This document shows positions 1-21,365 of a stretch of 37,344 nucleotides of DNA, one piece after another. Every line of letters starts with the position of its first letter. The first letter of the stretch is position 1. The stretch comes from Chrysophaeum taylorii (lineage: Eukaryota; Sar; Pelagophyceae; Pelagomonadales; Pelagomonadaceae): NCBI GenBank assembly GCA_029834535.1, contig JAQMWT010000461.1, forward strand, positions 1-37,344, read 5' to 3'. A program made the translations under genes and the position numbers. The notes below the pieces were generated by a model that ran no database searches, was not told where the DNA came from, and saw only the letters and a program-made list of their open reading frames with translations.

Positions 1-23
1 TGTCATAAAGAAAACTGACATCA

Positions 24-600
24 TCACGAACGGAGTAGGGTGCCCCTGATAAGGGGGTCTAGAAGAGGGTAAGCCTTAGAGGCGGGAGTTGCCGCCACAG
101 GACTCCCTGGTAAGAATTCGAGCTGCCCCAGCGAGGTGCTAGCGCGAGGAGCGCGGCTTCGCCTTACGAGCATCTCGTGAACGAATCTTCTGGTAAACGC
201 GGGTGATGACCGGTTCAGGAACTCGGCCACTGCGTAAGTAAACTTGGGGATCAACACATCAATCTCGTGCGGAGCGAAATCCGTGACACAAGGAGTTGTG
301 TTGGAAGAAACTCTGGACTTGTCGGTGAAACTTCGACCTTCAACGTCCTTGAACTCGGGCTTGAGCTTGCGGTGCGAAAGGTGAGAGGTCGGCTTGAAAT
401 AAGCGACATCATCGTTCGGACCCAATCGGAGTAGAAATGTAGAGCAACACGATCATTCTGTTAATCGTAAGGCTCGTAAACTTCAGCAACATAAATCATC
501 TTGCGCCAATCAGAGCGCTTCCGGTCAGGAATCCGGAAAACAACAAACTTACCGTGCTGATAATCATCACGGTTTCTTCGGGTTTGCGGATGGCTTGATC
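24..600 (-). pseudogene. C-terminal tail of gypsy pol, possible Tudor/agenet-like reader
   Basis: After the integrase GPY/F region, one minus-strand frame (about 575 to 440) reads a compact beta-rich stretch: GKFVVF, then W-R-K-M-I-Y-V-A-E-V-Y-E, an in-frame TAA at about 471, then D-R-V-A-L-H-F-Y. The pattern of a Trp, an A-x-V strand and a V-x-L/V-H-F-Y strand recalls Tudor/agenet or similar chromatin-reader folds placed behind integrase in some gypsy elements. That assignment is inference. The stretch from 425 to 24 is open (133 codons) and has no domain I recognise. The frame to its right (496-732) is a different frame, so at least one indel lies here as well as the stop. Confidence 0.5.
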
Positions 601-635
601 AACGATCGGAGGTACCATCACAGGCGTGATCTGAC

Positions 636-1716
636 TTACATGAACACGTCGTTCTTCGGGCGGAGAGTCGAGAGACTCAATCCTATAGGTGACCGGGAAA
701 GGCGTTCCTTGATAATAAACGGCCCTCGCCATTCCGGTCGAAGTTTGTTCTGAAGGAAAGGAATGTAGAGCAAAACGTGCGATCCTTCCTTGTATTCAAC
801 ATCAACATGATCAGCATTGTAAGCCAATCGCTGTTTCTTCAAAGCTTTATCACGAGCCTCGCGGACGATCTTTGTATAATACTTCAATCGTTCGCGAGTT
901 TCGGCGACTGCATCAGAGCGAGTCTTCGGCAATAATCGTATCAAAATCCATGAGCGTGTAGTCAGTCGGTAGCATCGGCTGACGGTTCAGGCGCAGCATA
1001 GGCAAGCACGGAGGAAGGCCTTGATAAATCGGTTTACACGCTCAGCCGGGTTCGACTGGGCATGATAAGGAATCGTAGTTTGGTATCGTGTGTTAAAGAG
1101 ATGGCAAAACTCGCGCATCAACTTGTTCACGAACTCTTTACCGTTGTCGGTACGAATCATCTGGGCAAGTAGCCTTGAGGAGGATGTTAATGACAAAAGA
1201 CTCGAGGACAGACTCAGCAGTCTTATCGTTTAAAACATCCAGAATCAAGAAATGCGAGAACGGATCAAAAATACTAGAAGATACGTCTCGGGACCAGCGC
1301 TAGGGGTCCAAATAAATCCATGCAGAAGAACATCACCATCGTAGACGGGCTGCTGCAAGAGTCCAGCTCGTTTGCTCGCGTACGAGTCTGGCAACTAAAC
1401 ATTCAGCAATGAAGACTCCAACTTCGTTCATGTGGGCCACCAAAATCGTTCTTGGATAGCCTGGACGGTACTGTGACGTCCCATATGACCACCGTTAACC
1501 GGAGTGTCATGGTAGAGTCGAATAATGCGCTTGCGCAACGTAGCAGGTAATCATCGGGTGCGAATCAGCAGAAATGCGGTAAAGAACATCTTTAACGACT
1601 TCGAATCGTTCGTTCGCTCGGGAACGTCGCGGCGTCTGACCTTGGGCCATTCGGTAGCGAATATCCTCGCAAGTAGCATCAGATTCTTGCTCACGTGCGA
1701 TCTCAGCGAGCGTCAT
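636..1716 (-). pseudogene. Gypsy integrase (H2C2 zinc-binding, catalytic core, GPY/F), frameshifted
   Basis: This would insert the element's cDNA into host DNA. The segment 1716 to 1507 reads the region before the zinc finger (DVLYRIS). A different frame from about 1550 to 1440 carries the two histidines of the H2C2 finger (RLYHDTPVNGGHMGRH, then ERFWWP). The Cys part near 1400 is split between frames. The core is clear at 1170 to 1020: R-T-D-N-G-K-E-F, then P-Y-H-A-Q-S-N-P-A-E-R-V-N, giving the second Asp and the catalytic Glu. The first Asp lies in a poorly preserved part near 1320. The C-terminal domain at 944 to 640 has the W-R-G-P-F motif of GPY/F integrases. At least four frame changes are needed, so this copy cannot make intact integrase as written. 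Confidence 0.85.
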
Positions 1717-2031
1717 ATTATCGGGTATCTTATCGATATAATCTTAGTAGGCGGCTGCGTCTTTGAAGATCTGTGGCTCGTCGCGCGCTCGGTTCTTCCG
1801 ACGTTGTCTCGTAGCGTGAGACGTAGCCAACTTTATCGGATCTTTTTCAGGATCTTCTTCCTCGTCTTCCGGCAGTTCGGTCGTAACAAACGACATTATG
1901 AAGTGGCAAGAGGGAATCCTCGGTCATCAACGGGTCGGTTAAGCTATTGGAACACCAAATAATAGTGTGTCAAAGGTTCTCCAAACTAGTCAGTCTCGAT
2001 GACATGATCTATCGGATTGCGGGAGAGACAG

Positions 2032-3123
2032 TCAGGGATACTCATTCCCGGTGACTTTCCGGCTTGTAACCAAGTTCAGGGTCAAAATGGCGAGGCGCAT
2101 CGCCCAACGAGCAAGCTGTCCAGACGAGTGCGTCGCCTTACGTAAAAACGTCAAATTTCGGTGATCGGTCTCCAAAACAGTCCGGTGCCCTTCGATGTAG
2201 GCTCGAAAGTGCTCTAGAGAAAGTATAACTGCCAGCAGCTCTAGCCGACGGGGCTCGTAATTGCGCATCTCCTTCGGCACAGCTCGGCTCCAATATTCAA
2301 TCACTCGTTCTTCTCGAGTCACTCTTCCGGCATCGTCCTTGACTTCGACAATCTGGAAGAGATATTCTCCAAGTCCATCCTTGGAAGCATCGGATCGGAT
2401 CTGAAAAGGCAGATCATAATCGGGGTGGTAGACTCCACGGGAATCAAACAAAGCCTCAATAATCGTATCCCAAGCTTTCTGACACTCGGGCGTCCATTCG
2501 AACTTTACACCTTCGAGGCATAATCGTCTCAACGGCTCCACGATCTTCGAGTAGCCCTTCGCATATCGCCGGCAGTAATTACTCATGCCGATGAAAGAGC
2601 GTATCTGGGTCTTCGGGGAAGTATTCGGTAAAGTATCTGGAATCGGCATCTTCTGCAGTGCTCCCAGCGTCTTCGGATTCGGCTTCAAGCCTTCTGGGGT
2701 AGAAATGTGTCCCAGAAATTCTATATCATCATTGAGAAGGTGGAACTTCGCGGTTCGACCGCTGTACCCTCTCTGTGCCAAATGACACATCACTTCGATC
2801 AAAACTTGTAAATGTCGATGAAGATCGTCGGATCCCATCATAATATCATCAACAAACGCAACCAAGTCTTGATACATCCATTTCGAAAGGTCGCTCGCCA
2901 TTTGCTTGCAGAAAAGAGCTCCGGCCGTCTTCACACCTAGAGGTAATCGCAAGAAACTATGAGCGCCAAGTGGGCTAACCATCGTGACAGCGTCTTGCGC
3001 TGCCGGATCCAGACGAAGGTTGTGGTATCCCCATCTAATATCGATGCATGTCCGCCATCGTCTCATAGCGAGAAAAGCTAAAGCATCATCTTGTTGAATG
3101 TTCGGCCAACTGTCATTGACCAA
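2032..3123 (-). CDS. Gypsy reverse transcriptase palm/thumb and RNase H
   Basis: The 363-codon frame holds most of the RT and RNase H. Its catalytic F-V-D-D is at residues 90-93 (about 2853 to 2845), where most relatives have Y-x-D-D. FLGH (137-140) and RSFIGMSNYCRRY (175-187) are the usual thumb and connection motifs. RNase H shows the acidic set D245 (RSDAS), E295 (LELLAV) and D320 (ETDHRNL). The frame ends early: the expected Y-K-P-G-K and LSRNP motifs lie in another frame at about 2075 to 2010, so an indel truncates the RNase H end. The upstream RT fingers are in the overlapping 3078-3626 frame. The first codon is not a true start, because this is an internal part of a polyprotein. Confidence 0.93.
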   Translation of the reverse strand: MVNDSWPNIQQDDALAFLAMRRWRTCIDIRWGYHNLRLDPAAQDAVTMVSPLGAHSFLRLPLGVKTAGALFCKQMASDLSKWMYQDLVAFVDDIMMGSDDLHRHLQVLIEVMCHLAQRGYSGRTAKFHLLNDDIEFLGHISTPEGLKPNPKTLGALQKMPIPDTLPNTSPKTQIRSFIGMSNYCRRYAKGYSKIVEPLRRLCLEGVKFEWTPECQKAWDTIIEALFDSRGVYHPDYDLPFQIRSDASKDGLGEYLFQIVEVKDDAGRVTREERVIEYWSRAVPKEMRNYEPRRLELLAVILSLEHFRAYIEGHRTVLETDHRNLTFLRKATHSSGQLARWAMRLAILTLNLVTSRKVTGNEYP

Positions 3124-3626
3124 TTGATCGTTGAGCTGACGTAAGTCAACTGCAGCACGGAACGCGTTTGACGTTCCAATCTCAGCTCCTTATTCGGAAG
3201 CATCAACACAGGAAAGCCCCAAGGTGAGTTGGCCGGACGAATGACTCCATCCCGGCACCACTCGCTGATCTGCTTGCGGAGACAATCGAGCTTCGCAGGC
3301 GTCAATCGGTAGGGCGTCATCTTAATCGGTCGCGGATTCGCGTCTTTGAATCGTAGAGACACAGGAGGCGAGTCCACAGGTCTCATAATCGGGTCGAAAA
3401 AGGCCCAAGAATATTGCACACAGTGACGGAGCATCAGTTTCGCCTCGTCATCTAAGTGCGGATTGTCAGGAATTCCCAGCTCCTGAACAACCTTGTCAAC
3501 TTCTTCCTTCGTAGGAACTTGAACTTTCATAGCTTCGTTATCCTTGACATGCTCGGGAGTTTGCGGCAGCGGTGCACCCTCAGCATCGCGCGGCGCATCT
3601 TTCCATGGCACATCGAACTTCTTCAT
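3078..3626 (-). CDS. Gypsy reverse transcriptase N-terminal part (fingers)
   Basis: Residues 60-145 carry the conserved entry of gypsy RT: P-P-V-S-L-R-F, P-I-K-M-T-P-Y-R-L-T-P, then D-G-V-I-R-P-A-N-S-P-W and F-P-V-L-M-L-P-N-K. The next expected motif, V-D-x-R-x-L-N, is found in the neighbouring frame (about 3150 to 3130), so a 1-nt indel near 3160-3180 separates this frame from the 2032-3123 frame. The first about 55 residues are a charged lead-in that follows the methyltransferase region. It is an internal polyprotein segment, and the ATG at its head need not be a translation start. Confidence 0.9.
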   Translation of the reverse strand: MKKFDVPWKDAPRDAEGAPLPQTPEHVKDNEAMKVQVPTKEEVDKVVQELGIPDNPHLDDEAKLMLRHCVQYSWAFFDPIMRPVDSPPVSLRFKDANPRPIKMTPYRLTPAKLDCLRKQISEWCRDGVIRPANSPWGFPVLMLPNKELRLERQTRSVLQLTYVSSTINWSMTVGRTFNKMML

Positions 3627-3633
3627 TTTAGTC

Positions 3634-4448
3634 TCACTTCCGGGTGGCTTTTGTTGATCCTCTCGCCTTTGACACGAACACTCGGCTCGCTCTTAATCTT
3701 CGGTTCCCGATCTCGCTCAGGATCTGGCGGAACGTCCAAATTTGGTTGTCGGGGGGGGCAGCAGAAGAAGCATGAGACGTCCCCGGCTCATCTGTTGCAG
3801 GCGGAATCAACGGTACCTCTGGAGGTTTCCATTTGGTGCGATCTTGGAGATCATCAGTCGACACCCATCTTACGACACGTGTGCGCGTGTTTAACAGCGG
3901 AACTTGTACGTGACGAAGGGTGGTTTCATCGATTGCAAATAATAATCAAACGGTCGGTCTGCAGGACTCAACGCTGACGGCAAAGCTTCGCCGCTCAGGT
4001 GAAAATCCTTGGTCACAGAGTTGTGCAGATCGAGTACTAATAAGGCCATCGTGTCTGGTGGCACGACGGACGCCAAGTGTTTCAACGAGGTCGTCCTGGA
4101 GAAGCCGGCCCAATCAAAATCAAGGGGCATCGTCAGCAACTCCGAAGTCATTTTCAGATTCAGAGATCTGTAATCGGAACGGTGCGGTCCTACGCGAAGC
4201 GGGACACGCGCAACGGTATAAGCTGCGTCTGTCGCGGCTCGTGATGATCCTAAATTGTTCATCTGAAGTAAATGTCGTTCGTCGGCGTAGCCAAGTGCTG
4301 CGGCGAACTCTTGCTGCATATTCTTGCAAGTTTTGGAACTGCGCGCAAATGGAGCGGATGGCTGGAAACCAACAATCGCACGCGACAGCTCATTAAACTG
4401 GGCGTTATGTCGTAAAAATTGACGACGTACGTAAGGGTGCAAACGCAA
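3634..4448 (-). pseudogene. C-terminal half of the element-borne methyltransferase and linker to RT
   Basis: Two frames (4448 to 3891, then 3864 to 3634) lie between the catalytic half of the methyltransferase and RT. In the first, L-G-Y-A-D-E-R-H-L-L followed by M-N-N-L-G-S-S-R fits the place and pattern of motif VIII of C5-methyltransferases, where relatives have a Leu-Gly-Tyr helix and then a G-x-P-Q-x-R stretch. The following 100 residues would be the target-recognition domain, and RPFDYYL near the end may belong to motif IX-X. These assignments are inference. The 3634-3864 part is Pro/Ser-rich linker. A frame change near 4430 separates it from the catalytic half. Confidence 0.55.
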
Positions 4449-5667
4449 CGTAAGAAATAATCGAGGCCTCCTGCTCTATCAACCACATGAAGAAACCAGC
4501 CATCTTGCATAATTTCATCGTCCAGTGGGTAGCGGTGACTCCCTTGCCAACATCTCTGGAAGTCAAGTTGCACAGAGCGGAGTGTACGCAGGGTGGCGAC
4601 GCGATACACATCGACGACGACCATTCCGCGTAGGGTAAATAAGATTCGATCAACCGTAAGGTTGTAACATAGCGACCACACAGTGTGTGCTGCACCACAG
4701 GAATATTCGGAAAGTTCTTGTGGTGGATCTGGTTGGCGGTGTCCGACGCATCGAGTGCTAGCACGACTCGAAACGACGTCCCACACGTTTCGTTGGCTCG
4801 TTGGAGACCTAAAGTACTGCCTCCGGCTCCACTGAACAGCATCACCACCTTGCGATAAGTGATTGGAAGCCATTGAACCTTTTCGTATCGGCGGCGGATC
4901 TCCGCTTCGGTGATCTCGCGGCATTTCTTTTCATCTTCTTCCGACCTTCGAGCGAAATCGTCGCTGCCTTCAGGTCGTTTGAGGGTGGACTTGTCCGCCA
5001 TAGCGGTCGTAGCGTCCTTCTGCGCCGTGCTCAGCAACATCGGCGGGGGAGACGCGTCGCAATGCGTCAAATGACTAGCGACAGAAACGGTGAAAGAAAG
5101 GTTCCCCTTGTCGTATCCTTCTTCACATTCTTTCGTAAGTTCGTTGATCGTAGAGACGTTCAACTCATCTTCGTACCTAACGATACCGCCAATCGCAAGG
5201 ACTTCGCCTTGAGTGACGACCGTCGGCACTTCTTCCGCGGCAGTAACCGCAATCCGAGCAGCGGACCGGTCGTGCTCTTCGCAAGAAGAACACATTCCTT
5301 CGACAACTCCCAACTGCTCGTTCTCAGCAAACGTAGCGACGAAAACCTGTCCCATTTCCATAGGTTTCGACAAAATAACCGGTAGATTGTAAGTTCGACC
5401 GGGCTCGATTTGAAGCGTGCGCGCAGCGTAAGCAACTACTTCCTGCGCGGCTTCTCCCGGAGCTGGGGAGAATTTGGTCGTAGCATGTCCTCGCGTAGCC
5501 AAGGCTACCGTACGTTCCGGCGGCGGGCTTCGGAGATCTTTAATCGTGCTCAAACGAGCGTAAACTCGAGTCTTGACCAGGTCGAGACTCTTCCGAAAGA
5601 CATCGTGTTGATGATTGTAGATCGGCACGGTTATCGGATCTCGATCGTAAATAGATCGAAAGGTCAC
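4405..5667 (-). CDS. Gypsy pol segment: protease-RT linker plus cytosine-C5 DNA methyltransferase catalytic half
   Basis: Residues about 85-165 look like the beta-rich linker common between protease and RT in gypsy elements (IEPGRTYNLPV...QVFVATF). Residues 200-260 are a charged hinge. Residues 273-400 are a cytosine-C5 methyltransferase: motif I L-F-S-G-A-G-G at 277-283 for S-adenosylmethionine binding, a motif II-like A-L-D-A-S-D-T-A at 304-311 followed by KNFPN, motif IV A-S-P-P-C with the presumed nucleophile C360, and W-L-I-E-Q at 395-399 where relatives have the E-N-V motif VI. Transfer of a methyl group to cytosine C5 is the known family role. The frame then runs out at 4405 and the remainder continues in the 4448 frame. 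The listed start is a GTG inside an open frame that extends upstream to about 5745, so it is not a real start. Confidence 0.85.
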   Translation of the reverse strand: MTFRSIYDRDPITVPIYNHQHDVFRKSLDLVKTRVYARLSTIKDLRSPPPERTVALATRGHATTKFSPAPGEAAQEVVAYAARTLQIEPGRTYNLPVILSKPMEMGQVFVATFAENEQLGVVEGMCSSCEEHDRSAARIAVTAAEEVPTVVTQGEVLAIGGIVRYEDELNVSTINELTKECEEGYDKGNLSFTVSVASHLTHCDASPPPMLLSTAQKDATTAMADKSTLKRPEGSDDFARRSEEDEKKCREITEAEIRRRYEKVQWLPITYRKVVMLFSGAGGSTLGLQRANETCGTSFRVVLALDASDTANQIHHKNFPNIPVVQHTLCGRYVTTLRLIESYLPYAEWSSSMCIASPPCVHSALCNLTSRDVGKGVTATHWTMKLCKMAGFFMWLIEQEASIISYVAFAPLRTSSIFTT

Positions 5668-5698
5668 GATGGGTGCATCGATTCGTTCATCCTTGAAC

Positions 5699-6763
5699 TT
5701 AATCTTCTTGCGCCCGTAGACGACTTGGGTTCGAAAAAAAACAGATCTGATCGTGGGGGTAGTCCACGACGGCTCCTAAAACTCGTATATCGCGCCCTCC
5801 CAACAGGAACAGATAGTTCGTATCGGCCACAATAGCGACAATGGGGGCAGCGATGTTGTCGGCGAGGGCGACCCGAATCGCGATCCAACGAAAGATCGTC
5901 GTCGTATTCAATCCTGATCCGTACAGCTTGCGCTTAATCGGAAGTTCGCCTTCATCGAAAATCAACTGATCTTTGGCCAACCTTCTGACCATTTCTCGGC
6001 AAATATAAGAAACATCTGCCATTCCATCGACACCGATGGTCGTCGAGAATTTCGGTCCGTCACGATTCCTGTAGATGTGACAGGCTATAAACGTAAGAGT
6101 ACCCGTATCTAAACAACTGAGGGTAACCAAATCATCTTCGATCGTCTTGCCGTCTCGCGGCGTCAACGAAGTGTGAGCACATCGGGCTCTGACTCGCTCA
6201 TCTCCGGGGTTGGGCATCGATACCGCGGCTTGAGCTTTCGTATCATCTGTTGTTGGCGTCATCGACGTAACGCTCGCGGCAGCCTCTTTGTCTGGCGGCT
6301 TCCGCTCTTCCTCCAAGACAATCTCAGTGCTGGTAGGGGATCCTGGTCTTCGTAATCCTTGGAAGCAAACCACCCCTCTCCATAAGTCATTCATTTCGTC
6401 TTTCCAGAATGCATCTGTAAATTCATTCGTCATCGGTTGATCATCACCCTCATCGGCGATCGGTTCCGTGTCGGATGCAGCTTCGAGTCCGTAGCTGAGC
6501 GGTTGTTCTGGTGGCTTCTTTAGCAAGAAGTTCTGAGTTCTCGTGCACCAATCCTGCAGGTTCCACGTCGGCTCGTCTTCGTCCCACTCGAGAACGCTGC
6601 TACTCTTCTTCTTCTTAAATCTATCCTTTTCTTCCGGCGGCGTATCGGTGGCTCGATCCGTCGTACCCGAAACCGTTTCGGGGGGGTCCGCAGGAAAAGA
6701 TGGCGTCGTCCCCGACGTCAACTCTATCGTAAGATCGCCATCTGCATCACTCGCGGTGGTCAT
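5699..6763 (-). CDS. Gypsy ORF with retropepsin-like aspartic protease domain
   Basis: The 354-codon ORF begins with ATG whose last bases overlap the stop of the preceding ORF (ATGA). Residues 1-200 are acidic and low in complexity, with W-C-T-R-T-Q-N-F-L-L-K-K-P-P-E at 72-86. Residues 215-345 fit a retropepsin: strand T-L-T-F-I-A-C-H-I, the loop V-D-G-M-A-D-V-S-Y-I with D246, then L-L-G-G-R-D-I-R-V-L-G and A-V-V-D-Y at the end, as in gypsy proteases. The loop has D-G-M-A where active enzymes have D-T/S-G-A, so activity is doubtful. A separate L-D-T-G-T at 218-222 resembles an active-site triad but sits one strand too early. The frame ends just past an A8/T8 run (5734-5741), where a 1-nt change would join the next frame. 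Confidence 0.65.
   Translation of the reverse strand: MTTASDADGDLTIELTSGTTPSFPADPPETVSGTTDRATDTPPEEKDRFKKKKSSSVLEWDEDEPTWNLQDWCTRTQNFLLKKPPEQPLSYGLEAASDTEPIADEGDDQPMTNEFTDAFWKDEMNDLWRGVVCFQGLRRPGSPTSTEIVLEEERKPPDKEAAASVTSMTPTTDDTKAQAAVSMPNPGDERVRARCAHTSLTPRDGKTIEDDLVTLSCLDTGTLTFIACHIYRNRDGPKFSTTIGVDGMADVSYICREMVRRLAKDQLIFDEGELPIKRKLYGSGLNTTTIFRWIAIRVALADNIAAPIVAIVADTNYLFLLGGRDIRVLGAVVDYPHDQICFFSNPSRLRAQED
5734..5741 (-). other. Homopolymer frame junction between protease and linker-methyltransferase frames
   Basis: On the minus strand a run of eight T lies where the protease frame stops making sense and the frame leading into the linker and methyltransferase begins. Joining them needs a +1 step (equivalently, one T fewer). 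A run of seven T would make the two frames continuous. This could be a real mutation, a sequencing length error or a programmed event. I favour a homopolymer length error or mutation. Confidence 0.6.
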
Positions 6764-7263
6764 CGTCTCTCGTCAGTCGAATGAGCGCGCAAGCTATCAC
6801 TGCAGAAATCCATGTCTGGCTCACAGCCAGTTCGGTCGCCAGAGGTCGTCCCTGGAGGGTCCAAAGATAAGCCGATGGCATCGAGGGCTTCCTCGTCAAA
6901 AATAAACGGCGGGTCGTCCGTGGACGACTCGTCAAATAACGTTATCGCGGACACTGGTTCACAAGGTGCAGCTTCTTCATCTTCCGAATCTGAATTGTCT
7001 TCCCAGTACCGTGGAGCTTCTTCGAGTTCATCGCTCGAATCTTCGAGTTCATCGCTCGACATCTGCTCATAAATCTGTGCCAAAGACCGACGATTGGTCA
7101 GCACGTCGTTGGGTGGCTCGTCCATCGGCGGGCGAGCAAGATCGTCGAATGCGGCAAGGGCGTCGGCTGCGTCGTCGGTGCGGGTGTCCGCGTTCGGGTA
7201 CACCGTCACTCTTAATGGTAACTGTTGACCGCAAGGGGTCGTAAACGCGAGCGTTGCGCTCAA
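6760..7263 (-). CDS. Acidic gag-region ORF of the gypsy element
   Basis: About 167 codons, rich in Asp, Glu and Ser, with a short internal duplication (S-S-D-E-L-E repeated at about residues 69-80). No zinc knuckle, capsid or other known domain is visible. It has no ATG at its head; it begins directly behind the stop of the 7260-7967 ORF and lies in the -1 frame relative to it, as expected if it is entered by frameshifting at the GGGTTTT heptamer. Its stop overlaps the ATG of the protease ORF (ATGA). I do not recognise the protein; its position suggests a gag extension or linker. Confidence 0.5.
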   Translation of the reverse strand: MSATLAFTTPCGQQLPLRVTVYPNADTRTDDAADALAAFDDLARPPMDEPPNDVLTNRRSLAQIYEQMSSDELEDSSDELEEAPRYWEDNSDSEDEEAAPCEPVSAITLFDESSTDDPPFIFDEEALDAIGLSLDPPGTTSGDRTGCEPDMDFCSDSLRAHSTDERR

Positions 7264-7269
7264 AAACCC
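7260..7269 (-). promoter_or_regulatory. Canonical -1 ribosomal frameshift heptamer (GGGTTTT) at the ORF1 stop
   Basis: On the minus strand, codons TTG GGT TTT TGA end the first ORF. The heptamer G-GGT-TTT (7269 to 7263) is in the correct phase for X-XXY-YYZ slippage and lies directly before the TGA. A -1 slip gives GGG TTT TTG AGC, which enters the next ORF exactly. GGGUUUU is a known slippery heptamer in plant luteovirids. I have not identified the downstream pseudoknot that normally supports such sites. Confidence 0.55.
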
Positions 7270-7967
7270 AAATCATATTGGTGTCGGCCTCCGTCGTATT
7301 CGTCGTCGCGCGATCGGCGTCGTCTGTGCCGGTGCGAACTTCGACTGGGGCTCTTGTTATCTTTGTCTCTCTCTGGCGTCAGTTCGGCAGGTCCTAGTAC
7401 CTCTGAATCGTCCCTGTAGGCGACTGGTGCTCCCAAGCCGATCCGAACTGTCTCAATCGTCTCGTCTATCGAAACATCGACACATGCATCGTCTTCTTGC
7501 CAAAACTCCGACCAAACGTAAATTAAATCTCCGTTGGCGAATAAATCCGTGCCTCGGGGTCGGAATTGCACTTCTTTCCGCTCTGGCGGTTTCTTCCTTA
7601 GGAAACAGTGAGCTCGTATCCATATCGTCGGTACGCTCATCTTCTTCTTATCCATGCTGATCGTCCCATCCAAATTCGATTCCGGGCGGCAGCTATACTC
7701 ATCCCTCATAGTATGTTCGGGATCTTTCTTTATCACGTAGCCATCATCATATGCAGGCTGAAAATCATTGAACTCTTCGTTCGTGAGTAATACGCCAGGG
7801 CTTTCACAGAGCTCCAAAGGCAGTTCATGCGTTATAAGATTCTTCACCTCTTCCGCTTTCGTATTCATTTTCTCGGCCGTTTCGCTCGGCCTATCATCCA
7901 CTCCATCGCTTAGAATATCGGCAATCGCCTCGTCACTAAAAATGTCGGCACACGAAATGTCTGCCAT
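7260..7967 (-). CDS. First (gag-like) ORF of the gypsy element
   Basis: Starts at the ATG at 7967 (MADISCADIF). An earlier in-frame stretch is open back to a stop near 8062 but has no better start. The protein is acidic in its first half, has W-I-R-A-H-C-F-L-R-K-K-P-P-E in the middle, and ends in an Arg/Ser/His-rich tail (SPSRSSHRHRRRRSR), which could bind RNA. No classical zinc knuckle is present. The W...FLxKKPPE block recurs in the protease ORF, so the gag region may contain an internal duplication. The call as gag rests on position and the basic tail; no capsid fold is recognisable by eye. Confidence 0.5.
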   Translation of the reverse strand: MADISCADIFSDEAIADILSDGVDDRPSETAEKMNTKAEEVKNLITHELPLELCESPGVLLTNEEFNDFQPAYDDGYVIKKDPEHTMRDEYSCRPESNLDGTISMDKKKMSVPTIWIRAHCFLRKKPPERKEVQFRPRGTDLFANGDLIYVWSEFWQEDDACVDVSIDETIETVRIGLGAPVAYRDDSEVLGPAELTPERDKDNKSPSRSSHRHRRRRSRDDEYDGGRHQYDLGF

Positions 7968-8045
7968 CGTCAAAGGGAACAAAACATCTGCAAAGACGTC
8001 TGCAATCGGTTCGTCGGGGGGCCCTGTGGGACGGGAATCCCCAAC

Positions 8046-11645: not shown

Positions 11646-13052
11646 AAAATCTGAATTAGGGCTAGTACCCCCTATTCTAGGGTTAGTTCCCTTAACTTTA
11701 GCACCTTATACCCATACATTAATAATCCGATGCAGAGAGAGAGGCCATTGATTAGTGTCCTCATATACTCAAAAGTACTAGAAACGGACGCCGAAACGGA
11801 CATTATTGTTAGTACGAATTCAAAATTTCGGGATGTTTGTGCGCGCTACAGGCGGGTCCTTACTACTACTAATTAGCAGATGTCTGTCTGTCTGTCTTTA
11901 AATGTCGACTGCTGAGAGGGGGGTGTGTGCATGAAGGATGTGGGTGGTTTTGTGGAGTAGGTCGACTCTCCCCCAAATCAGGGTAAGGCTCAGGTAGGCG
12001 CGCGACCCAAACATTGATCCTCCAAGCCGTCTATGGCGACCTCGCGGACTATTTCCACGACCCGCGGCGGCTCTTTTAGCCAGCGCGCCATTCTCACGCC
12101 CCGTCGAAACGATGCTGTCGATGCTGACGACGCGCGCATGACGGCGGCCTTTTTTCCCCGGAGACGAGGCGTCGGAGTTCTTTTCGGCCGCCTAGGTTGG
12201 GTCGGAAGACGACGCCTCGCTCTCAAGAGTTTTTTTTCATCTCCCTGACCACCAACAGCATGCTGGCTTTGATATCGAGCTTAAAGTCTTCGCAACCTCG
12301 ACCCGTCTCGCACGGCCACTGCAACGGTACCAGATACGTGATAGATCGTGTCGCGTGTCGCCGAGGCTCCTCAAACCAGTATCCCTCAAGCCCCACCGAC
12401 GCCAAACGATCAACAAGAGCCAGGGCCAGACGCCCCGCGAGGTCCGCGTCCTCTTGCCCACAAGCCCGTCTTCTGCCACGTCCAGCTCTACGTGGCTCTC
12501 TGTCGATCGGCAACTAACCCCGAGGATTTGCTCTTCTGGGTCGACGACTCCACCCTACCCCACACGTGCAGCGCAATATCGACCGATAAGCCCCCTCCCG
12601 GCGTCTACACGCGCACTGTAGGTGAAGAACTTACTGGGACCAGGTGAACTTACTTACGGGGGTTAGAGATTGGGACTAGGTGAACTTAGTCCCGCGAACG
12701 CTCGCGATGCCAGCGCCATAAGCACATTCGACGTGAAGCGGCGGCCCCCACGTTCGCACTCTTCCCCCACCGTGGTCTTTACGGTGCGTTGTGTCGCGTG
12801 TGAGGATGTGCCAGAAGGGCGTAGCAGAGATCTCATAAAAATTCAAAAAAAAAAGAACATGATATCATAAAAAAGCAGATGTATGGGTACTGGAAAAAAA
12901 AAGTCTGCGCCTCTCAACTCGTTGATTTAAGAAAACGCTGTGTTATTCACAGCGGCTGTCCTCGTTCCAGGAGACAGATTCGAGGACAGACTACCACTGT
13001 TCTCGCGCTCTGCTGAAGGGTAACTCAGTTGTTGAAATTACTGCTCTCTAAG
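11646..13052 (+). repeat. Left LTR of the copia element, interrupted
   Basis: Part A (11646-11705) matches 21811-21879, including CCCCCTATTCTAGGGTTA and GTTCCCTTAACTTTAGCACC. Part B (12921-13052) matches 21890-22056, including TTGATTTAAGAAAACG, GGCTGTCCTCG, AGACAGATTCGAGGACAGAC and CGCTCTGCTGAAGGGTAA. In the right copy the parts are about 11 bases apart; here they are about 1.2 kb apart. Exact LTR ends (TG...CA) could not be fixed. Confidence 0.8.
11706..12920. mobile_element. About 1.2 kb of DNA inserted in the left copia LTR, possible small DNA transposon
   Basis: This DNA has no counterpart in the right LTR. Near its ends lie TACCCATACAT (11709-11719) and its exact reverse complement ATGTATGGGTA (12879-12889), an 11-bp terminal inverted repeat. 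Inside are a (TGTC)4 run at 11881, a GC-rich centre with short overlapping frames on both strands, and two copies of GGGACYAGGTGAACTTA at about 12638 and 12672. No transposase is visible. About 30 bases between the right repeat and the resumption of LTR sequence are unexplained, and I see no clear target duplication, so deletion from the right LTR remains an alternative. Confidence 0.5.
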
Positions 13053-13129
13053 GAATTGGGCACCAGTCCTCAGGATTCGATTCCCAGACAACCCCCCGCT
13101 CGCTGACGTTCCTGAACCCAAGCAACAAA
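13053..13129 (+). other. Leader behind the left copia LTR, region expected to hold the primer-binding site
   Basis: Directly after the LTR part B the sequence reads TTGGGCACCAGTCC and then CAGGATTCGATTCC. A tRNA-primed element should have a site beginning TGG here. TGGGCACCAG could be complementary to a tRNA 3' end finishing in CCA, but I cannot name the tRNA. Confidence 0.3.
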
Positions 13130-14572
13130 ATGCCAACCAATCAAGAACACCAGAAGGAGATAAGAGAACATCGCTTAGAAGCCAGGCATCAAAAAGAGAT
13201 GCAAGACCAAGAAGTTCGCTTCATGGCACAAATTCAATTAAGCGCGCTGGCCGCCCAAGCACCACCACCTGCCGTCGCTGCTGCGGCTCCACCCCCCCCC
13301 TCCAGCTCAACAAGACCCTAAGAACAAAGCTAACACCTTTAGTAACTCACCTAGCGCCGTTCTCAAGTCAATGGACTCGGCTCAAGTCACACCCCAAATG
13401 CTTTCTTTTCGTGTCATGCAGTTGAACATCTGATGCCTGAAACAGGCATAACCCAATACTTTTTGCAGGGCCTCTACACGTGGGAATCCGTCTGGCGCGG
13501 ATCTAATGACCTCGCTGACGCTCTTCTCAGCCACTGCTGCATCAAAGAATACGACAAAGATTTCCAAGGCCGTTACGTCTACTACAAAGGCGTCTACCGC
13601 AAAAAAATCGGCAAATACTTCTTGGAGAACGTCTACGAGCCAAAGCTCCAAGAACTTGGAGATCAAGACAAGGACCCGACCGATACGACAAATCACCCAA
13701 CCGCATCTCCAAGGAAAAGAAACCGACTTCATCGTATAATACCTCCGCGAGACCGTGCACCCCCTCTTTCGCCGTTTCCTACATGCCGGTAGCGACTCCG
13801 TCAAGCACCCAGCATACGACGAAATCGATGCACTCGGATCTTCCAATCTGACAGGACTCGAATTTTTTGTGCTTCAAGTTCGCCTAGCACTCGACAAACA
13901 CACGGGCCGCCAGAACCGCGTCCACCATGCGCATTATGTCTATAATGCCTTCCTGGACACGCCGTTCAACCCGGAGATCCACGAGAGCCCGCGCTTTATA
14001 TTGATTATATGCGGCACGTTCAGCAGCAACTCCGCCAAATCACAAACGACACAAACGACACAAACGGCCCTTCTCTCTAACTTTCCGACGACAAGATCCT
14101 TCCTCGAGGAAATCCACCAACTTCTTCGCTTTAAGTACCCCCCAAGCTTGCGTGACTCCCGCGCCCCAACACACATCAAGGGCTTTTCACTGTCTGCGTA
14201 CTCCCAGCGACTCGCTGTTACTCGACGAAGACAAGGAAGCCATCAACCACCTTCCTAAGCATCATCGCTCGCATCACCGTCATTTCAACGTTTGAGCGCA
14301 ACTTTTGGGCTCACCTCAAGCCTCACCCCACTCTCAACTTCAAGCCTTTGCGCTTCGTTACGGACTTTGGTCGTCTGCCGACTAAAGACAATGCACGTTT
14401 CCGCTCCCGCCGTCATGGTCTCCGCCGATAACGATGATGACACCTCTCCCTCTGAAGATGAAATCCCTCCAGACCCCACTGAAAACACCGACCCTGTTGC
14501 TGTTTTTCTCACTGAGGCCGACCTCGATCAAGATGACGACAACGATCTCATCCAACATCCACACACACCTAT

Positions 14573-14603
<31 letters not shown>

Positions 14604-14720
14604 AGCAGGCTACACGACATCCCAAGAAGCCCCCCCCCCCAAAAAAAGCCTCACAATCCTCGCTCCCCGTCGTACTATGACGTCAATGACAGTCCAAAGC
14701 CCCCAAGGCCACCCCAGTGA
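13130..14720 (+). pseudogene. Gag-like region of the copia element, in several frames
   Basis: An ATG at 13130 opens a 63-codon frame with a charged coiled-coil start (EHQKEIREHRLEARHQKEMQDQE) and an Ala/Pro-rich end. The frame 13433-13792 reads a more globular part (ITQYFLQGLYTWESVW... YVYYKGVYRKKIGKYFLENVYEPKL), and 13755-14258 and 14292-14720 continue in other frames. Position after the LTR and the coiled-coil plus globular layout fit gag. There is no clear CCHC zinc knuckle. At least three frame changes are needed to read through. Confidence 0.5.
14574..14604 (+). repeat. (GAAA)n microsatellite
   Basis: Nearly eight uninterrupted copies of GAAA inside the gag-like region, coding Lys/Glu/Arg in the open frame there. 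C and A homopolymers follow at about 14631-14647, so this segment is prone to slippage. Confidence 0.95.
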
Positions 14721-15147
14721 CCCCACCGAAAAAAAACAAGCAAAATCCCCGTGCTGCTCCTGTCACCCCCCCGACAAACGCGAGCACCCGCATCTTCGCA
14801 AGGTCAACTTTCCAACTCAACCTCATCCACCTAAACCATCTACTCCTGACCAGCGATTCAAGGTCCCCCTTCGTGAAGTCCGTCGCAAGCTCCAAACCAT
14901 ACGGGATCTCGGCCAACCCGGTCGCCAACATACGTCCAGCTCCGAGCGCATGAGCAAGCTAATCAACCTCATCACCACCATCTCCGACGACGACGATATA
15001 CTTCTCTCCGAAGCCAATAACGATGCCGCAGAATTTCTTCGGGTGCTATCGTCCGATCCTGCGGAAGATCCACCCGATGAGGCGAAACTACTGAGGAAAA
15101 AAAAGACCAAGGCCATCTCGGTTTCTATGATGACCACGGACACCTAG
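14677..15147 (+). CDS. Charged ORF at the end of the copia gag region
   Basis: 156 codons. The first half has a Cys/His cluster (C-C-S-C-H-P-P...H-P-H) that is not a standard zinc knuckle, and the second half is a charged helical stretch (MSKLINLITTISDDDDILL). The frame stops at a TAG at 15145. I recognise no domain. It may be the gag C-terminus or the gag-protease junction, judging only by position. Confidence 0.35.
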   Translation: MTSMTVQSPQGHPSDPTEKKQAKSPCCSCHPPDKREHPHLRKVNFPTQPHPPKPSTPDQRFKVPLREVRRKLQTIRDLGQPGRQHTSSSERMSKLINLITTISDDDDILLSEANNDAAEFLRVLSSDPAEDPPDEAKLLRKKKTKAISVSMMTTDT

Positions 15148-17140
15148 GCCTCCTCTACGACGACACCATCCCCGAAGTCAGGATGATTCAAAGGAAGATT
15201 ACGCACAACGTCACAGCGACTACGTGCGTGCTCTCCACCACCAGAGTCAGCTTTTTCGCTGATGGTTGGTTGCCGACGACGACGCCTGTGCCGCCAACCA
15301 CATCTTACTCAATCAGGCACCAAGCCTCACGATGACGACGAATTTCCCGACATCATCAACCATCGCACCCGGAGTCGCAGATTTTTTTCTTTGTGCAACC
15401 TACACTCCAGGCAAGACCTCCTCAAAGAAGACTATAACTCGTTGCACGGATGCAATGGACCCGGCACTGAAACTTCTTTAATTGATATGGTGGCGCATCA
15501 TTTTTTTTCACCCGCACAATTCAACACTTTGTTCTTCCCGAGTCCATACGCCGGATTCCCGAACACACCATACGCATGGGAAGAGGCACCTTGACCAGCC
15601 ATTTCGTCGTCGGTGTTAAACCGTTGTAAGTACTTGCAGGCCGCAGGTCTCTCCCAAACAAAGGATATCAAACAATCAACTGGTTACGCACTATACCACC
15701 TTGTAGTATTTCTGGTCGTTCCGCAATTCCGCAAAAGTCTACAGGTTATCGCGACATCTCAGCTCAAAGCTCTGAATGTACAAGCAGCAGACCCTCCGTT
15801 GCCGCACGAACCATACCTGTATGAGAGCTAATGAACACGTCGGCAGCTGATCCTCACGATTACAAGACGCCGCTTCTAGGAAAAACAGCCATAGTTTTCG
15901 CCAATCGCCACAAACCAATGGCCTCTTGTCCCTGCAGTCTCGTCCAAAGCAAACATTCCGCGCTGTGGTTAGTTTCCACGCTGGAACAGAAATGTCACGC
16001 AAGGATGATGAACTCGCACACATCACACAGCATGTTGCAAAGACACGCTCGCAATCTCACATGTTAGATTTTCACTAAGCTCCAACATCTCTCCATCTTT
16101 TTATCTGATCTCATTCGCCTCCCGCGTACCGTCGTCCGTCCAATAGGCATTTCCTACCACAGCGGATCTATCTGTGCAAGCACAACCCCCTCCGCTAAAA
16201 AAAGCTATTATTGCAGGTGGACTTCATTCACCAAAAAAGTTTTTCCGCTTTTCGCAAACGCTTCGACGGCCGTATTACTGTCGTGGTCACCTGTGAAATT
16301 CATCCTATTATGCGCGCTCGCGCCCAACAACTCTTCCCGCATGCTCAGCCATTATGCAGATCTCAGACAGCTCAATAATGCCGCTCTGCAAAAATCGGCA
16401 AAATTCGACTACCTCATTTTGACTTAGCGGTTTTCATTCACACTGCCATGTCAACATTTGAGTAAAATGAAAGAATATGACGGCTACTCCAGTGACAGCC
16501 GACGTTTTTGCCACAGAACTAATCCGCTTTGTTCGCTGCACGCTCCCGACCTACGCCATTGTCGAGAACGTCCCTCCAACAACAACCCCCGAACTCATCA
16601 CGAGTACATCCAACTCGCCAAATGCTATCAGCGCTTAGGCTACTTCCGACACTCCGGTGTCTACAATGCCTCCTCCGCTTTTGGTGACGTCATCAGCAAG
16701 ACCCGCTATCTCGCTGTCTATGCCCGGCACCCGCTCACCGACAGTATGACAACCTCGAGAAAAAAAACGCTTCGCCTTGGTTAACATCTCCTCCGAGCAT
16801 GGTCCCCCTTCTGGACCCCAGCAACACTATCCCCGACGACGATCTCTGGATCGCCAACCCCGCCCTTCGTGGCACCGTGCTCCACCTTGACCTACTACCA
16901 ACACGAGGCCACTTTTTCCTACGCGCCTGCCAACGCCTCGGCTAAACTCTCGATTTCCGAGAATGCCCGCATCTGCCAAATGCTCGCACGCTTCACCAAG
17001 CCCTTCACGGATCTCGGTCTAGACGCCGACGGCACCCCCTACACCACCATGGCGTCCATTTCCAACCTTATGGTTTTCACATTACTGCACAACCATGGGC
17101 GAATTCTTACTCTCGATGACATGACCCCAAGGGACTCATT
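15148..17140 (+). pseudogene. Unrecognised copia internal region where protease is expected
   Basis: Short frames (15262-15594, 15613-15831, 15831-16067, 16458-16784, 16869-17273) read Ser/Thr/His-rich protein in changing phases. A copia element should carry its aspartic protease (D-T/S-G) between gag and integrase, but I find no convincing triad. The plus strand keeps the C-rich bias of the rest of the element, so this is probably decayed pol sequence and not foreign DNA. Confidence 0.4.
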
Positions 17141-17890
17141 ATGTCCAAAGCACGTCCCACTTACGCGGACTATGTCGGCCACATCGGAGACACGCTTCAG
17201 AAAAGCACCAAGTGCTACTCGGTCACTGGCTCGTACCCAACCAACACGAGCTACTCCAACGCCCTGCTGCTGATCTCTCCAGACCACATCCGCTATGCGA
17301 CCCTCAACGAAATCGCAAAGTTTGGACACCACTCGGTAAACCCGGAACTGCTCCGACTGTTCAAACAGCACCCGCCGTACTTCGCGTTCAAGGCACTGGC
17401 CAACGCCGTCCCGCACCATATGCTGCAGGCAAAGTACAGCGCTGTTCTCGCACTCCACGAATCGCACCACCACGTGAACTTTCACATCGAATGGGCAACA
17501 ATATGCAATGGCATCCCCACCCCCGGAGACATCACCCAGGTTGCAGACTTCTTCATGAGCATCTCCAGCCGTCTCTTAGCAGAGGAGGACCTCAACCTCA
17601 CCTCCCTCTTCAATTGTACCGTTGCAGATGCGCACCGTGATGCGATCCGCAAACCAAGCAAAAAAACGACAAAAAACCTCGAGACGCTTCTTGCCGAGGC
17701 AACCATTGCTAAAATCCGAGTCGACAAACCACCCAGCCCCCCCTCCCCAGCGCTTCGACTGCTGCTCTGCCTCCCTTGCACCAGCCCGGCACCATTCAGC
17801 ACGCCAAAAGAGTGCTTTTGGTCACTCGCTGGCACCGCATACACCACCAGCAACCAGAGATTCTTCGCCGCACGATTGCCGCTAACGTAA
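17141..17890 (+). CDS. Unidentified 249-codon copia ORF upstream of integrase
   Basis: An uninterrupted frame reading a mostly globular protein (YADYVGHIGDTLQ, HIRYATLNEIAKFGHHSVNPELL, DITQVADFFMSISSRLLAEEDLNL) with a Lys/Pro-rich end. It directly precedes and overlaps the integrase zinc-binding frame. I recognise no domain. Its length without a stop and its helical character suggest true coding sequence, perhaps the region between protease and integrase. Confidence 0.45.
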   Translation: MSKARPTYADYVGHIGDTLQKSTKCYSVTGSYPTNTSYSNALLLISPDHIRYATLNEIAKFGHHSVNPELLRLFKQHPPYFAFKALANAVPHHMLQAKYSAVLALHESHHHVNFHIEWATICNGIPTPGDITQVADFFMSISSRLLAEEDLNLTSLFNCTVADAHRDAIRKPSKKTTKNLETLLAEATIAKIRVDKPPSPPSPALRLLLCLPCTSPAPFSTPKECFWSLAGTAYTTSNQRFFAARLPLT

Positions 17891-18150
17891 CGAATCTCCG
17901 CCCAGGTGATGATGATCGGTATCTGCAAGACTGCAGTGAATGCAAGCGCTGCCAATCGCACGTAAGCTTCAGTCACAAGAACAATAATTCCTGGTCACAG
18001 AATGAACTGGCCTATGCTCCTGGCCAACACCTCCACATGGATGTCTCATACCCAAGCATCAGCAAATGTTATGGTGGATTTCGTTACATCATGCATTTCG
18101 TGTGTATTATCTCGGCATACAAGTGGGTCTATTTCCTGCGGAAACTGTGA
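17776..18150 (+). CDS. Copia integrase N-terminal part
   Basis: The frame reads R-W-H-R-I-H-H, then C-S-E-C-K-R-C at residues 53-59, the zinc-binding part, followed by A-P-G-Q-H-L-H-M-D-V, where D89 (about 18040) is the first catalytic Asp, and G-G-F-R-Y-I-M-H-F-V with I-S-A-Y-K-W, as in rve-type cores. It stops at 18148 and the remainder continues in the 18184 frame. The known role is integration of the cDNA copy. Confidence 0.85.
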   Translation: MHQPGTIQHAKRVLLVTRWHRIHHQQPEILRRTIAANVTNLRPGDDDRYLQDCSECKRCQSHVSFSHKNNNSWSQNELAYAPGQHLHMDVSYPSISKCYGGFRYIMHFVCIISAYKWVYFLRKL

Positions 18151-18183
18151 GACGCACAGGACGTTCTGGTTGGCATCCTCTAC

Positions 18184-18885
18184 GTGGTCAATGTGATTAA
18201 GGTCGAATTCGATGTAAATGTGAAAATCATATTATCTGATGCATTCTCAACTTTTCGCTGTGAAGCATTCTACCCCCTCAAGGTGCAGCTTGGTCTCCAA
18301 TTCCAAATCCTTGGTCGCCACCTCCACCAGCGGAATTTTGCTGAAAACATTTTCAAAGAAAACACCCGAGGCACGGTAGTTCGCCTCCTCAACCTTCGCA
18401 GCGTACGCATCGAAGGAAAGTCTATTGCCGCCGAGTATTATCACCCATTTGCTCTACTGCATAAGATCCAAGCCGACAGCCAGCGCCCTCATGGACTGCC
18501 CTCGCGCACAAACATGGCATGCACCGTCCCCCGGCGCATCATGTCACCCATTTCACCGCTCTTAAAGCTCCTTCCCTTTGGTGAACCTGTCAAAGTCACA
18601 AGCTGGAACCCTCCAGCGTCTTCGCCTCTTACTTTCATAGTAACAACTATCTCCCGAACCTCCCCGGCACGGACCGATTTATCCGTGATGTTCACAGCTC
18701 TATCCTGCTTGTACATCAAGGGGGATATGGAAAAATCGTCACCTCTAACGACTTTCACGTTGACGCAGACATGCCAGTCAACCGCAACAAGGAGATCGAA
18801 CGGATCAAAGCACTCGAGCACAGATCCCAGCAGAGGCACGACAAGAGGACCCGCTCCCAGCTATAAGCGAACAGCAAATGCCTGA
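18184..18885 (+). pseudogene. Copia integrase second half, frameshifted
   Basis: Begins V-K-I-I-L-S-D-A, which fits the strand with the second catalytic Asp. It then reads a region in which conserved motifs are only partly in phase: an A-x-E-Y-Y-H-x-F-A-L-L-H-K-I stretch similar to the helix after the catalytic Glu, and L-x-P-F-G-E-P-V near 18570, the usual copia F-G-x-x-x motif. The catalytic Glu is not visible in this frame, so an indel lies between about 18260 and 18400. Confidence 0.6.
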
Positions 18886-19231
18886 AGCTGGACAGGAATC
18901 GATAGATGAGGGCGAGACTCAAGATGACGACCATGATGATAAACCTGAAGAAGATGACGACGAGCACAAAGAACCGGATCCAACTCCCGCTGCCGATCCA
19001 AGTCCCGTCAGCGACGAGACACCTGAACAGGATTTTTCGTTCCTCAACCGGCCACCCCCGCCGGATGGTAGCATTCCGATGCCCAAACGAAAAGATCGCC
19101 TAGAGGTTGCTCTCGACGATTCAGGTTTTACTCCAGTTCTCGTGCATCGCAACCAGAGCGACAAACTCAAGGCAGATCTCAAGGAAGAACGCGGATTCCG
19201 CGTCCCTAAGGATCAACACTCTATGTCGTGA
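18878..19231 (+). CDS. Acidic linker between copia integrase and RT
   Basis: The 117-codon frame starts with a strongly acidic stretch (DEGETQDDDHDDKPEEDDDEHKE), then Pro-rich sequence, then a basic patch (PMPKRKDRLE). Copia polyproteins usually have such a low-complexity linker between integrase and RT. No catalytic domain is expected here. It stops at 19229, and a new frame (19228-19788) of unknown function follows. Confidence 0.55.
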   Translation: MPEAGQESIDEGETQDDDHDDKPEEDDDEHKEPDPTPAADPSPVSDETPEQDFSFLNRPPPPDGSIPMPKRKDRLEVALDDSGFTPVLVHRNQSDKLKADLKEERGFRVPKDQHSMS

Positions 19232-19788
19232 AACGTGTTGACGATGGAACACTCTTCACCAAACGCGCATTCTCGCCTCCCGAGTATGGTCGCAACTGGA
19301 AATGCCAGCAGGAGCAATCCACGGCTCGCGCCACAGCCAACATGTCCAGCACATTGATGTTCCTCATCCGTGTCAGCGCTCTGCACCAGGGCCACGCCGT
19401 CAGCATCGCATCTGACCTCAACATTAGAAGGGATGCTAAGCCGCCAAACGATGTCCCGAAAGGATGTCTCCTAGCAAATACCACACAAGACTACGGTATC
19501 ATGGGCGGCACTGCACTGGATCTGCAGAGAGAAACCGACGCGGAACTCTTGTGTGTCGACTGCCCAAGGAAGCCGCACCATTCATCTGTATTGGTCGACC
19601 ACCAGGACAACGACAACTCTGTTCTCGAGAGCTACGTGTGCCATGACGAACTGTCACCGGCAGAGTACTATGCGCGTCCGTCAATGGAACCAAGAATTCT
19701 GTTGTGTGGGCTCCTCCCTTTTGTGGGACATCTCAGCGCATCAGCACTACCATCTAGCTTCTCGTCACAGGCATGCCTTCATGCATGA
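19228..19788 (+). CDS. Unidentified copia ORF before RT
   Basis: The 186-codon frame reads mixed sequence with several Cys (LLCVDCPRKPHH) and no known domain. It lies where the integrase-RT linker continues. Other frames of the same stretch are less convincing. It may be partly out of phase with the original protein. Confidence 0.3.
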   Translation: MKRVDDGTLFTKRAFSPPEYGRNWKCQQEQSTARATANMSSTLMFLIRVSALHQGHAVSIASDLNIRRDAKPPNDVPKGCLLANTTQDYGIMGGTALDLQRETDAELLCVDCPRKPHHSSVLVDHQDNDNSVLESYVCHDELSPAEYYARPSMEPRILLCGLLPFVGHLSASALPSSFSSQACLHA

Positions 19789-19869
19789 TTCTGGCGAACT
19801 CGGACACCTCTTTCTAAGTCAAAGTGATCCGAATCAAGATATTCTCCAAGAAGTCATGGACTCTATGAC

Positions 19870-20780: not shown

Positions 20781-20783
20781 AAG

Positions 20784-21365
20784 ATGCTTGCTGAGCATAA
20801 GCTCAACCTACATAATATGGACGTCCCCTATTCGGACATCCTCACTCGAAAGCCTCCTGCTAAACTTCTCTCAGACTTGGCTCCTACCTTAGACGTATTA
20901 CGCCAACATTTTCCTCACTACTGTGGCACACTAGTATTTTACTCGTCAGTCGGCCTGATATTACCACTTTGTGCAACAAATGCTGCAAGGGCATGCATGC
21001 ACAATCCTGATCAGACCCACCTTTTGCACTTGTCTGTTTTACTTCGCTACTTAAAGGGTACTCCGACTGATTCACTCGACTATTCATCCGACTCTATTAT
21101 CCCCTTTATATTCAGCATCTGATCAGCCGCTATTCTGAACTGCATCACCTTCGTTTACCTATTATTCGTTTTACTGATGCATGTTTTGTTGACCGCTCTG
21201 AGCCTCGCTTGCGATTCAATTCTGGTGCGTGTATCTTACGAATCTTTGGCAATTTCGTATTTTGGTCTAGCAAACGTCAAACTCTTACTGCCAAAAGCAC
21301 ACCATGGAAGCTGAACTCATCGCCGCCAGCGCAGCCGCCGATGAATGTCACTGGTATTTGACCAG
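20784..21365 (+). pseudogene. Copia RT thumb/connection and RNase H, frameshifted
   Basis: The frame 20784-21122 carries the connection region (H-L-S-V-L-L-R-Y-L-K-G-T, L-D-Y). A second frame reads R-F-T-D-A-C-F-V-D-R-S (first RNase H Asp, about 21170) and F-V-F-W-S-S-K-R-Q-T-L-T-A-K-S. After a shift near 21300, M-E-A-E-L-I-A-A-S-A-A-A-D-E-C-H-W-Y supplies the catalytic Glu helix. These are standard Ty1/copia RNase H motifs. Three frames are needed. Confidence 0.9.

Follow-up and report, generated by a model that had tools for sequence, protein, structure and literature searches.

Does the Ty3/gypsy element at the start of this stretch of Chrysophaeum taylorii DNA (37,344 nucleotides, hereafter the window) encode a cytosine-C5 methyltransferase (MTase) as a part of its polyprotein, and what would a retrotransposon keep such an enzyme for? 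The preliminary description had placed the enzyme between the protease linker and the reverse transcriptase (RT) and proposed that it could methylate element or host DNA and affect silencing. The features of the window are collected in Table 1.

Table 1. Coordinates of the annotated features in the window
Feature	Position	Strand	Remarks
Decayed Ty3/gypsy element, family 1	1..8024	-	cut by window start; tblastn and blastn against L029
Aspartic-protease-like segment (VDGMADVSYI ... FLLGGRDI)	5786..6031	-	motif level
C5-cytosine MTase domain	4056..4857	-	motifs I-X; frameshifted past motif VI
MTase motif I LFSGAGG	4839-4819	-	
MTase motif II VVLALD	4767-4750	-	
MTase motif IV ASPPC	4602-4588	-	catalytic Cys
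MTase motif VI WLIEQ	4485-4471	-	
MTase motif VIII CRVRLL	4387-4370	-	
MTase motif IX region	4187-4155	-	
MTase motif X ASVVPP	4076-4056	-	
Reverse transcriptase RVT_1	2704..3144	-	Pfam E=2.8e-12
RT motifs	LPLGVK 2946-2929; FVDD 2859-2845	-	
RNase H (RT_RNaseH)	2089..2421	-	E=1.3e-24
Integrase region, decayed	696..1547	-	corresponds to Integrase_H2C2 and rve region of L029
Ty1/copia element	12922..22055	+	LTR-like ends 12922-13052 and 21890-22055, 74% alike
Copia Gag-like ORFs, decayed	13497..15259	+	tblastn of L010 Gag
Copia C5-MTase domain, decayed	16147..17096	+	
Copia MTase motifs	TLPC 16440-16451; IVENV 16558-16572; FGDVISK 16680-16700; SENARICQML 16956-16985	+	
Copia reverse transcriptase RVT_2	20046..20600	+	E=2e-22
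Chlorophyll-binding LHC gene (PF00504)	26160-26621	+	

The methyltransferase domain of the gypsy polyprotein

Motifs I, II, IV and VI and the RT named in the preliminary description were all found on the minus strand of the window, and the C-terminal half of the domain, with motifs VIII, IX and X, was present beyond them. The description had also put the MTase in the frame of the linker. This holds for the N-terminal half, which is read through from the upstream linker in a single open frame (ORF 5775-4405). The C-terminal half, however, lies in other frames, so the window copy is broken by frameshifts. The MTase is otherwise complete, with motifs I-X between the protease-like segment and the RT. 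We take the motifs of that segment to be aspartic-protease-like; a Pfam profile search of the segment gave no match. Polyprotein residues 346-3026 of a reference copy, L029, align to window positions 8024-142 (tblastn), and the two copies are 94-95% identical (blastn). Residues 1-345 of the reference frame had no counterpart in the window element by tblastn.

On its own, the window ORF scored 19.5 bits against PF00145 (E=7e-4), below the curated cut-off of 22, and the match inside the 3,026-aa frame of L029 reached 18.9 bits. The isolated domain of this family (family 1), however, passed PF00145 in 14/14 aligned copies (best E=4.4e-6; first member 25.9 bits). The 14 domains came from 17 examined copies; L041 and L044 were omitted because their frames are broken there, as was L033, which is open at the MTase and rearranged downstream. 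The profile match, the ordered motifs and the many copies bear out a C5-MTase in the gypsy Pol between the protease-like segment and the RT.

In an alignment of six gypsy rows, from two families and a MMETSP transcript (P0001), Cys117 of motif IV, Glu155-Gln156 of motif VI and Arg187 and Arg189 of motif VIII (Arg-x-Arg) are invariant, and PPC is kept in five rows. The AdoMet loop is GAGG in 13 of the 14 family-1 copies and GAGA in L036. Motifs I, VIII, IX and X follow the canonical order in the gypsy MTases, with motif I lost in P0001, and the motif VI triad is IEQ or LEQ instead of ENV. Given this triad and the loss of motif I in the MMETSP relative, the catalytic function may have changed.

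PDB matches of the gypsy domain were non-significant (E 0.017-1.7), with unrelated chains scoring as well; the cytosine MTases among the family-1 matches in this range were DNMT2/tRNA-C38 MTases and bacterial enzymes. No stand-alone homologue appeared at E<=1e-3 among 5.8 billion proteins, in a search that covers proteins of 0.55-1.75x the query length sharing 5-residue words. Phage records gave one match, annotated as DNA methyltransferase, at E=0.3. Viral contigs held no relative of the gypsy domain, and bacterial genomes gave no relative with search patterns that fell outside the catalytic core. TIGR00675 (dcm) stayed below its cut-off of 100.65 for gypsy, copia and two host genes alike. 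A structure model of the MMETSP fragment and two window pieces had a pLDDT of 37 and was discarded.

In a tree of 11 tips, few and distant from each other, the gypsy MTases came together (0.94-1.0) and were joined by a host gene (0.80); the grouping of MTases in this tree may be taken as a hint only. This host gene, G000:C634 (L001:1498-2577), has a 360-aa open frame with PF00145 over residues 1-319, and from its motifs we take it to be DNMT2-like. Another host gene, G000:C621 (L009:7468-9999), is DNMT5-like: its single 2,086-aa frame matches both PF00145 and SNF2. The photosynthetic host presumed in the preliminary description fits the LHC gene in the window.

Two further regions of the window were noted. 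A RAP-domain protein (8338-11134, plus strand) contains 111-bp (37-aa) tandem repeats in 15 register copies, where one spacing of 109 nt shifts the frame. A third repeat-like region (30300-37344, plus strand) holds an 821-aa frame at 32640-35102 without Pfam match, and its recurrent NGPGT/DGPGT motif is similar to the beginning of the copia Pol.

Gypsy and copia copies across the genome

The 141-residue N-terminal half of the MTase was used to search the 70.8-Mb genome that contains the window. We found at least 150 matches to the family-1 MTase, as all 150 scored candidates matched, the window copy included (771 candidates); those listed are 87-100% identical, in open frames of up to 3,067 aa. 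The family-1 RT had at least 107 matches (107/107 scored; 1,233 candidates), and at least 60 of the 107 listed have the MTase upstream on the same strand. In these 60 paired copies the RT starts 1,356-1,719 nt after the MTase start (median 1,700). When 12 of the other 47 RTs were sampled, 10 had MTase sequence upstream, some of it partial or frameshifted, and 2 had none; in one of these two, L051, LTR sequence occupies the MTase position. Near-identical rows from contigs C25/C521 and C10/C297 suggest duplicated contigs or haplotigs, which would slightly inflate the copy counts. The protease-MTase-RT order that the preliminary description proposed to look for elsewhere thus recurs in many copies with the same spacing, one of them with a frame of more than 3,000 aa.

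The copy on contig C5 carries a pair of 336-bp LTRs, which are plain direct repeats and 100% identical, and it is therefore a recent insertion. No target-site duplication was seen at this copy, the sole one inspected. Its frame includes the 3,026-aa frame of L029, in which the MTase match starts at residue 1405 and is followed by RT (1960-2124), RNase H (2219-2331), H2C2 (2515-2573) and rve (2591-2684). Behind the 5' LTR lies the primer site TGGTGGAGGA, which complements the 3' end of tRNA-Ala(AGC), CCA included; the complementarity continues imperfectly past the site into the T-loop. A host tRNA-Ala(AGC) gene is present at C630. Among the sites listed from 117 matches, 24 rows are one base off tRNA-Ala(AGC) and 3 are two bases off, and by their sequence these would be the primer site of the element. 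The RT-RNase H-integrase order, the LTRs and the tRNA primer site identify the element as Ty3/gypsy. As a side observation, the gypsy primer site (L047:395-495, L064) complements tRNA-Ala over a longer stretch than is usual for retrotransposon primer sites.

A second gypsy family came from an RVT_1 search (150 of 611 candidates scored) and was read at C225. Its MTase lies in a 2,129-aa frame, is 39% identical to family 1 and matches PF00145 with 37.8 bits (E=2e-9) over N- and C-terminal parts of the profile, including positions 257-321. It occurs at about 125 merged places or more (134 of 898 candidates scored). At least 27 of the 41 listed family-2-like RTs have an MTase 1.2-2.0 kb upstream, and the other 14 have none among the matches listed. 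A further relative, 42% identical, lies at C676. The same RVT_1 profile gave eight matches on the single contig G000:C696, which may be organellar group II introns.

A search with the full gypsy frame returned two proteins, P0001 and P0002. The MMETSP transcript polyprotein P0001 is a gypsy Pol, 47% identical over the stretch from RT and RNase H to the start of the integrase. Its MTase-like domain has the same position as in the gypsy families (24% identical, E=2e-19), although on its own it has no PF00145 match. It has PDC in place of PPC, and its motif I glycines are lost, so some of the relatives are probably inactive. P0002 is 30% identical over 29%, and its domain list does not include PF00145. 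The shared position of the MTase in family 1, family 2 and the MMETSP transcript indicates an old capture within this clade.

The window also holds a Ty1/copia element that bears an MTase of its own, which the preliminary description had not mentioned. Of the 57 PF00145 matches listed from the genome, 55 belong to this copia family and 2 to other genes (123 of 474 candidates scored); the gypsy MTases, whose scores lie near the cut-off, are absent from these. In the 1,952-aa Pol frame of the copia copy L010, PF00145 covers residues 349-475 and RVT_2 residues 1686-1933, while an rve-like match at 1016-1110 scores 17.2 bits, under its cut-off of 32.6. The RVT_2 domain lies downstream of the integrase in this frame, as in Ty1/copia, and the window element has an RVT_2 domain too. 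No LTR pair was found inside the fetched stretch of L010.

The copia MTase is present at about 139 merged places or more (143 of 654 candidates scored) and passed PF00145 in 13/13 aligned copies (first member 35.5 bits), drawn from 26 sources with a match. Motif I is degenerate, motif X did not align, and TIGR00675 gave 34.6 bits. The domain is 35% identical to a phage Dcm over residues 46-140 (L060, viral contigs) and 25% to an archaeal-virus DNA methyltransferase (E=2e-6), with which it groups in the 11-tip tree (0.89). Stand-alone homologues were absent at E<=0.01 among the 5.8 billion proteins. That the gypsy and copia MTases share a recent ancestor was rejected on hhalign probabilities of 0.5% and 0.2%, which reveal no relation between them other than their common PF00145 membership. 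These alignments are shallow, and a deep common origin could still underlie both.

Selection and CpG content

The MTase domain is under purifying selection. With Nei-Gojobori counts, mean dN/mean dS was 0.074 for the whole family-1 domain (105 pairs) and dN/dS was 0.054 for its catalytic part (120 pairs). The family-1 RNase H gave 0.078 (118 pairs), the linker 0.162 (28 pairs) and the RT 0.109 (105 pairs), the last value being raised by the frameshifted L033 and L044. The family-1 copies were mostly chosen for long frames, which lowers these ratios but affects the contrast between subfamilies little. Against L029, the MTase had a dN/dS of 0.15-0.23 for copies of the same subfamily and of 0.05-0.06 for those of other subfamilies, where dN was about 0.12 at a dS of about 2, that is, at saturated synonymous change. 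The corresponding RT values, L033 and L044 aside, were 0.03-0.19 and 0.01-0.03, so the MTase is somewhat looser than the RT. For the copia MTase, sum dN/sum dS was 0.138 (153 pairs), compared with 0.214 in the segment that follows, 0.088 in the integrase and 0.145 in the RT.

Stable CG methylation of the elements would be expected to lead to CpG loss, as described for the SymbioLINEs in the relevant passages of PMC5890265. We observed no CpG depletion in the gypsy elements: their CpG o/e was 1.30-1.31, with 1.26-1.46 in four gene-bearing stretches and 1.01-1.05 in copia. TpG was 1.09-1.16 in copia against 0.71-0.90. The third repeat-like stretch of the window had a CpG o/e of 1.02, so the copia value may reflect composition, and the mild relative CpG deficit of copia could be either this or an old footprint. 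Single-copy C>T changes at CpG numbered 29/3790 in gypsy subfamily A, 9/2371 in subfamily B and 28/4451 in copia, and those at other Cs 54/8430, 24/5745 and 111/12596, respectively. None of the three showed a CpG-specific C>T excess, with 0.71-1.19x the rate at other Cs. CpT in subfamily B was slightly high (C>T 14/1924), in one of 12 comparisons. These data therefore speak against a lasting CG methylation of the elements, most clearly for gypsy.

Possible roles and known relatives

These elements carry an MTase domain with ordered motifs, at a fixed place, in many copies and under purifying selection. We think it probable that they form an old, high-copy clade of MTase-bearing gypsy elements, whose enzyme modifies the element's own nucleic acid during replication. 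The MTase would be cut out of the polyprotein together with the RT and packaged in the particle, where it might methylate the element's own cDNA, RNA-DNA hybrid or genomic RNA; such methylation would help the new copy to survive or integrate. Action during replication is the preferred inference because selection keeps the domain while lasting CG methylation is disfavoured. The copia family in the same genome, with a different MTase, points to an advantage shared by LTR elements in this host. It is possible, though we put this forward only tentatively, that two LTR superfamilies independently took different non-DNMT3 MTases directly after the protease and use them on a replication intermediate, with no lasting genomic 5mC. 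Retrotransposon replication would then include a nucleic-acid modification step carried out in the particle. With the same reserve, the gypsy MTase would in that case be DNMT2/Dcm-like and the copia MTase prokaryotic/viral Dcm-like.

The first proposal, that genomic DNA of the host or the element is the enzyme's main target and that silencing is thereby altered, now seems rather unlikely. SymbioDIRS enzymes do methylate CG in yeast, as stated in the part of PMC5890265 that concerns them, and the host DNMT5-like gene could preserve de novo marks. Copia elements also have lower CpG and higher TpG than the gene-bearing stretches. However, the third repeat-like stretch matches the copia value, gypsy CpG is undepleted and C>T at CpG is raised in neither superfamily.

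We consider it unlikely that the enzyme is a DNMT2-like RNA methyltransferase whose targets are genomic RNA or tRNA inside the particle, with no 5mC ever left in the genome. The DNMT2/tRNA-C38 and bacterial enzymes among the PDB matches, the place of the domain beside C634 and the missing CpG C>T excess all agree with such a role, but the PDB matches are non-significant and GGA1 chains score better in one search. The primer is tRNA-Ala, which to our knowledge is not a DNMT2 substrate, so there is no special support for the primer as the target. The copia MTase, moreover, is Dcm-like, so an RNA role shared by the two would have to be convergent.

It is improbable that the domain is a non-catalytic, MTase-derived structure retained to assemble particles or to bind nucleic acids. 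The replacement of ENV by IEQ/LEQ in gypsy and the altered motifs I and IV of the MMETSP relative would suit such a role, but families 1 and 2 keep the GAGG loop, the PPC cysteine, the motif VI glutamate and motif VIII. A one-off insertion or a misassembly can be dismissed, since all of the 150 scored candidates matched, the distance to the RT is fixed and a second gypsy family carries the domain.

An MTase kept by selection in jumping elements hints that marking RNA or DNA helps them to spread. Within a single 71-Mb algal genome, gypsy and copia elements alike have cytosine MTases at matching Pol positions, and the recurrent capture of these enzymes without a CpG C>T footprint raises a testable question: do they serve replication, evasion of silencing or a change of the host epigenome? 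The small genome and the many copies make DNA and RNA methylome tests feasible.

A gypsy-borne C5-MTase is already known from Klebsormidium nitens. KnitGypsy-Dnmt3, as presented in the sections of PMC5890265 devoted to it, is a gypsy Pol with a DNMT3-type MTase, a DIRS-like repeat arrangement and Ka/Ks < 0.2. It resembles our element in the embedded C5-MTase, the several copies and the purifying selection. In contrast to its DIRS-like repeats, the C5 copy, the only one inspected, has plain direct 336-bp LTRs. The motifs here are FSGAGG, SPPC and IEQ, the nearest PDB matches are DNMT2 and bacterial enzymes (non-significant), and DNMT3 is absent among the few, weak PDB matches (A1, A5, A6). The gypsy enzyme is apparently of a non-DNMT3 type. 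The host, too, is another alga, one that has genes for an LHC protein and a DNMT5-like enzyme.

SymbioLINE-Dnmt and SymbioDIRS-Dnmt3 of Symbiodinium, covered in the same parts of PMC5890265, are likewise many-copy retrotransposons of a marine alga with a C5-MTase, but the carriers there are LINE and DIRS elements, whereas here they are LTR gypsy and copia elements. SymbioLINEs are CpG-depleted, unlike our gypsy elements, and the Symbiodinium copia elements are described in those passages as being without any DNMT domain. One sentence of PMC12344493, citing the 2018 paper, places DNMT3s in 'LTR Copia and DIRS'; the text of the cited paper names Gypsy instead. The pertinent lines of PMC6338049 report DAM-/DCM-encoding Ty3/Gypsy and DIRS elements in Stramenopiles among others, and do not separate the two enzymes. 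Compared with the open-access literature, what looks new is the capture by copia, together with enzymes that are apparently not of DNMT3 type. The copia MTase shares its TLPCQ and ENV motifs with prokaryotic and viral Dcm-type C5-MTases, but lies inside a 1,952-aa Pol between a protease-like segment and the integrase. For the gypsy MTase, the independent capture that the preliminary description raised as a possibility is likely.
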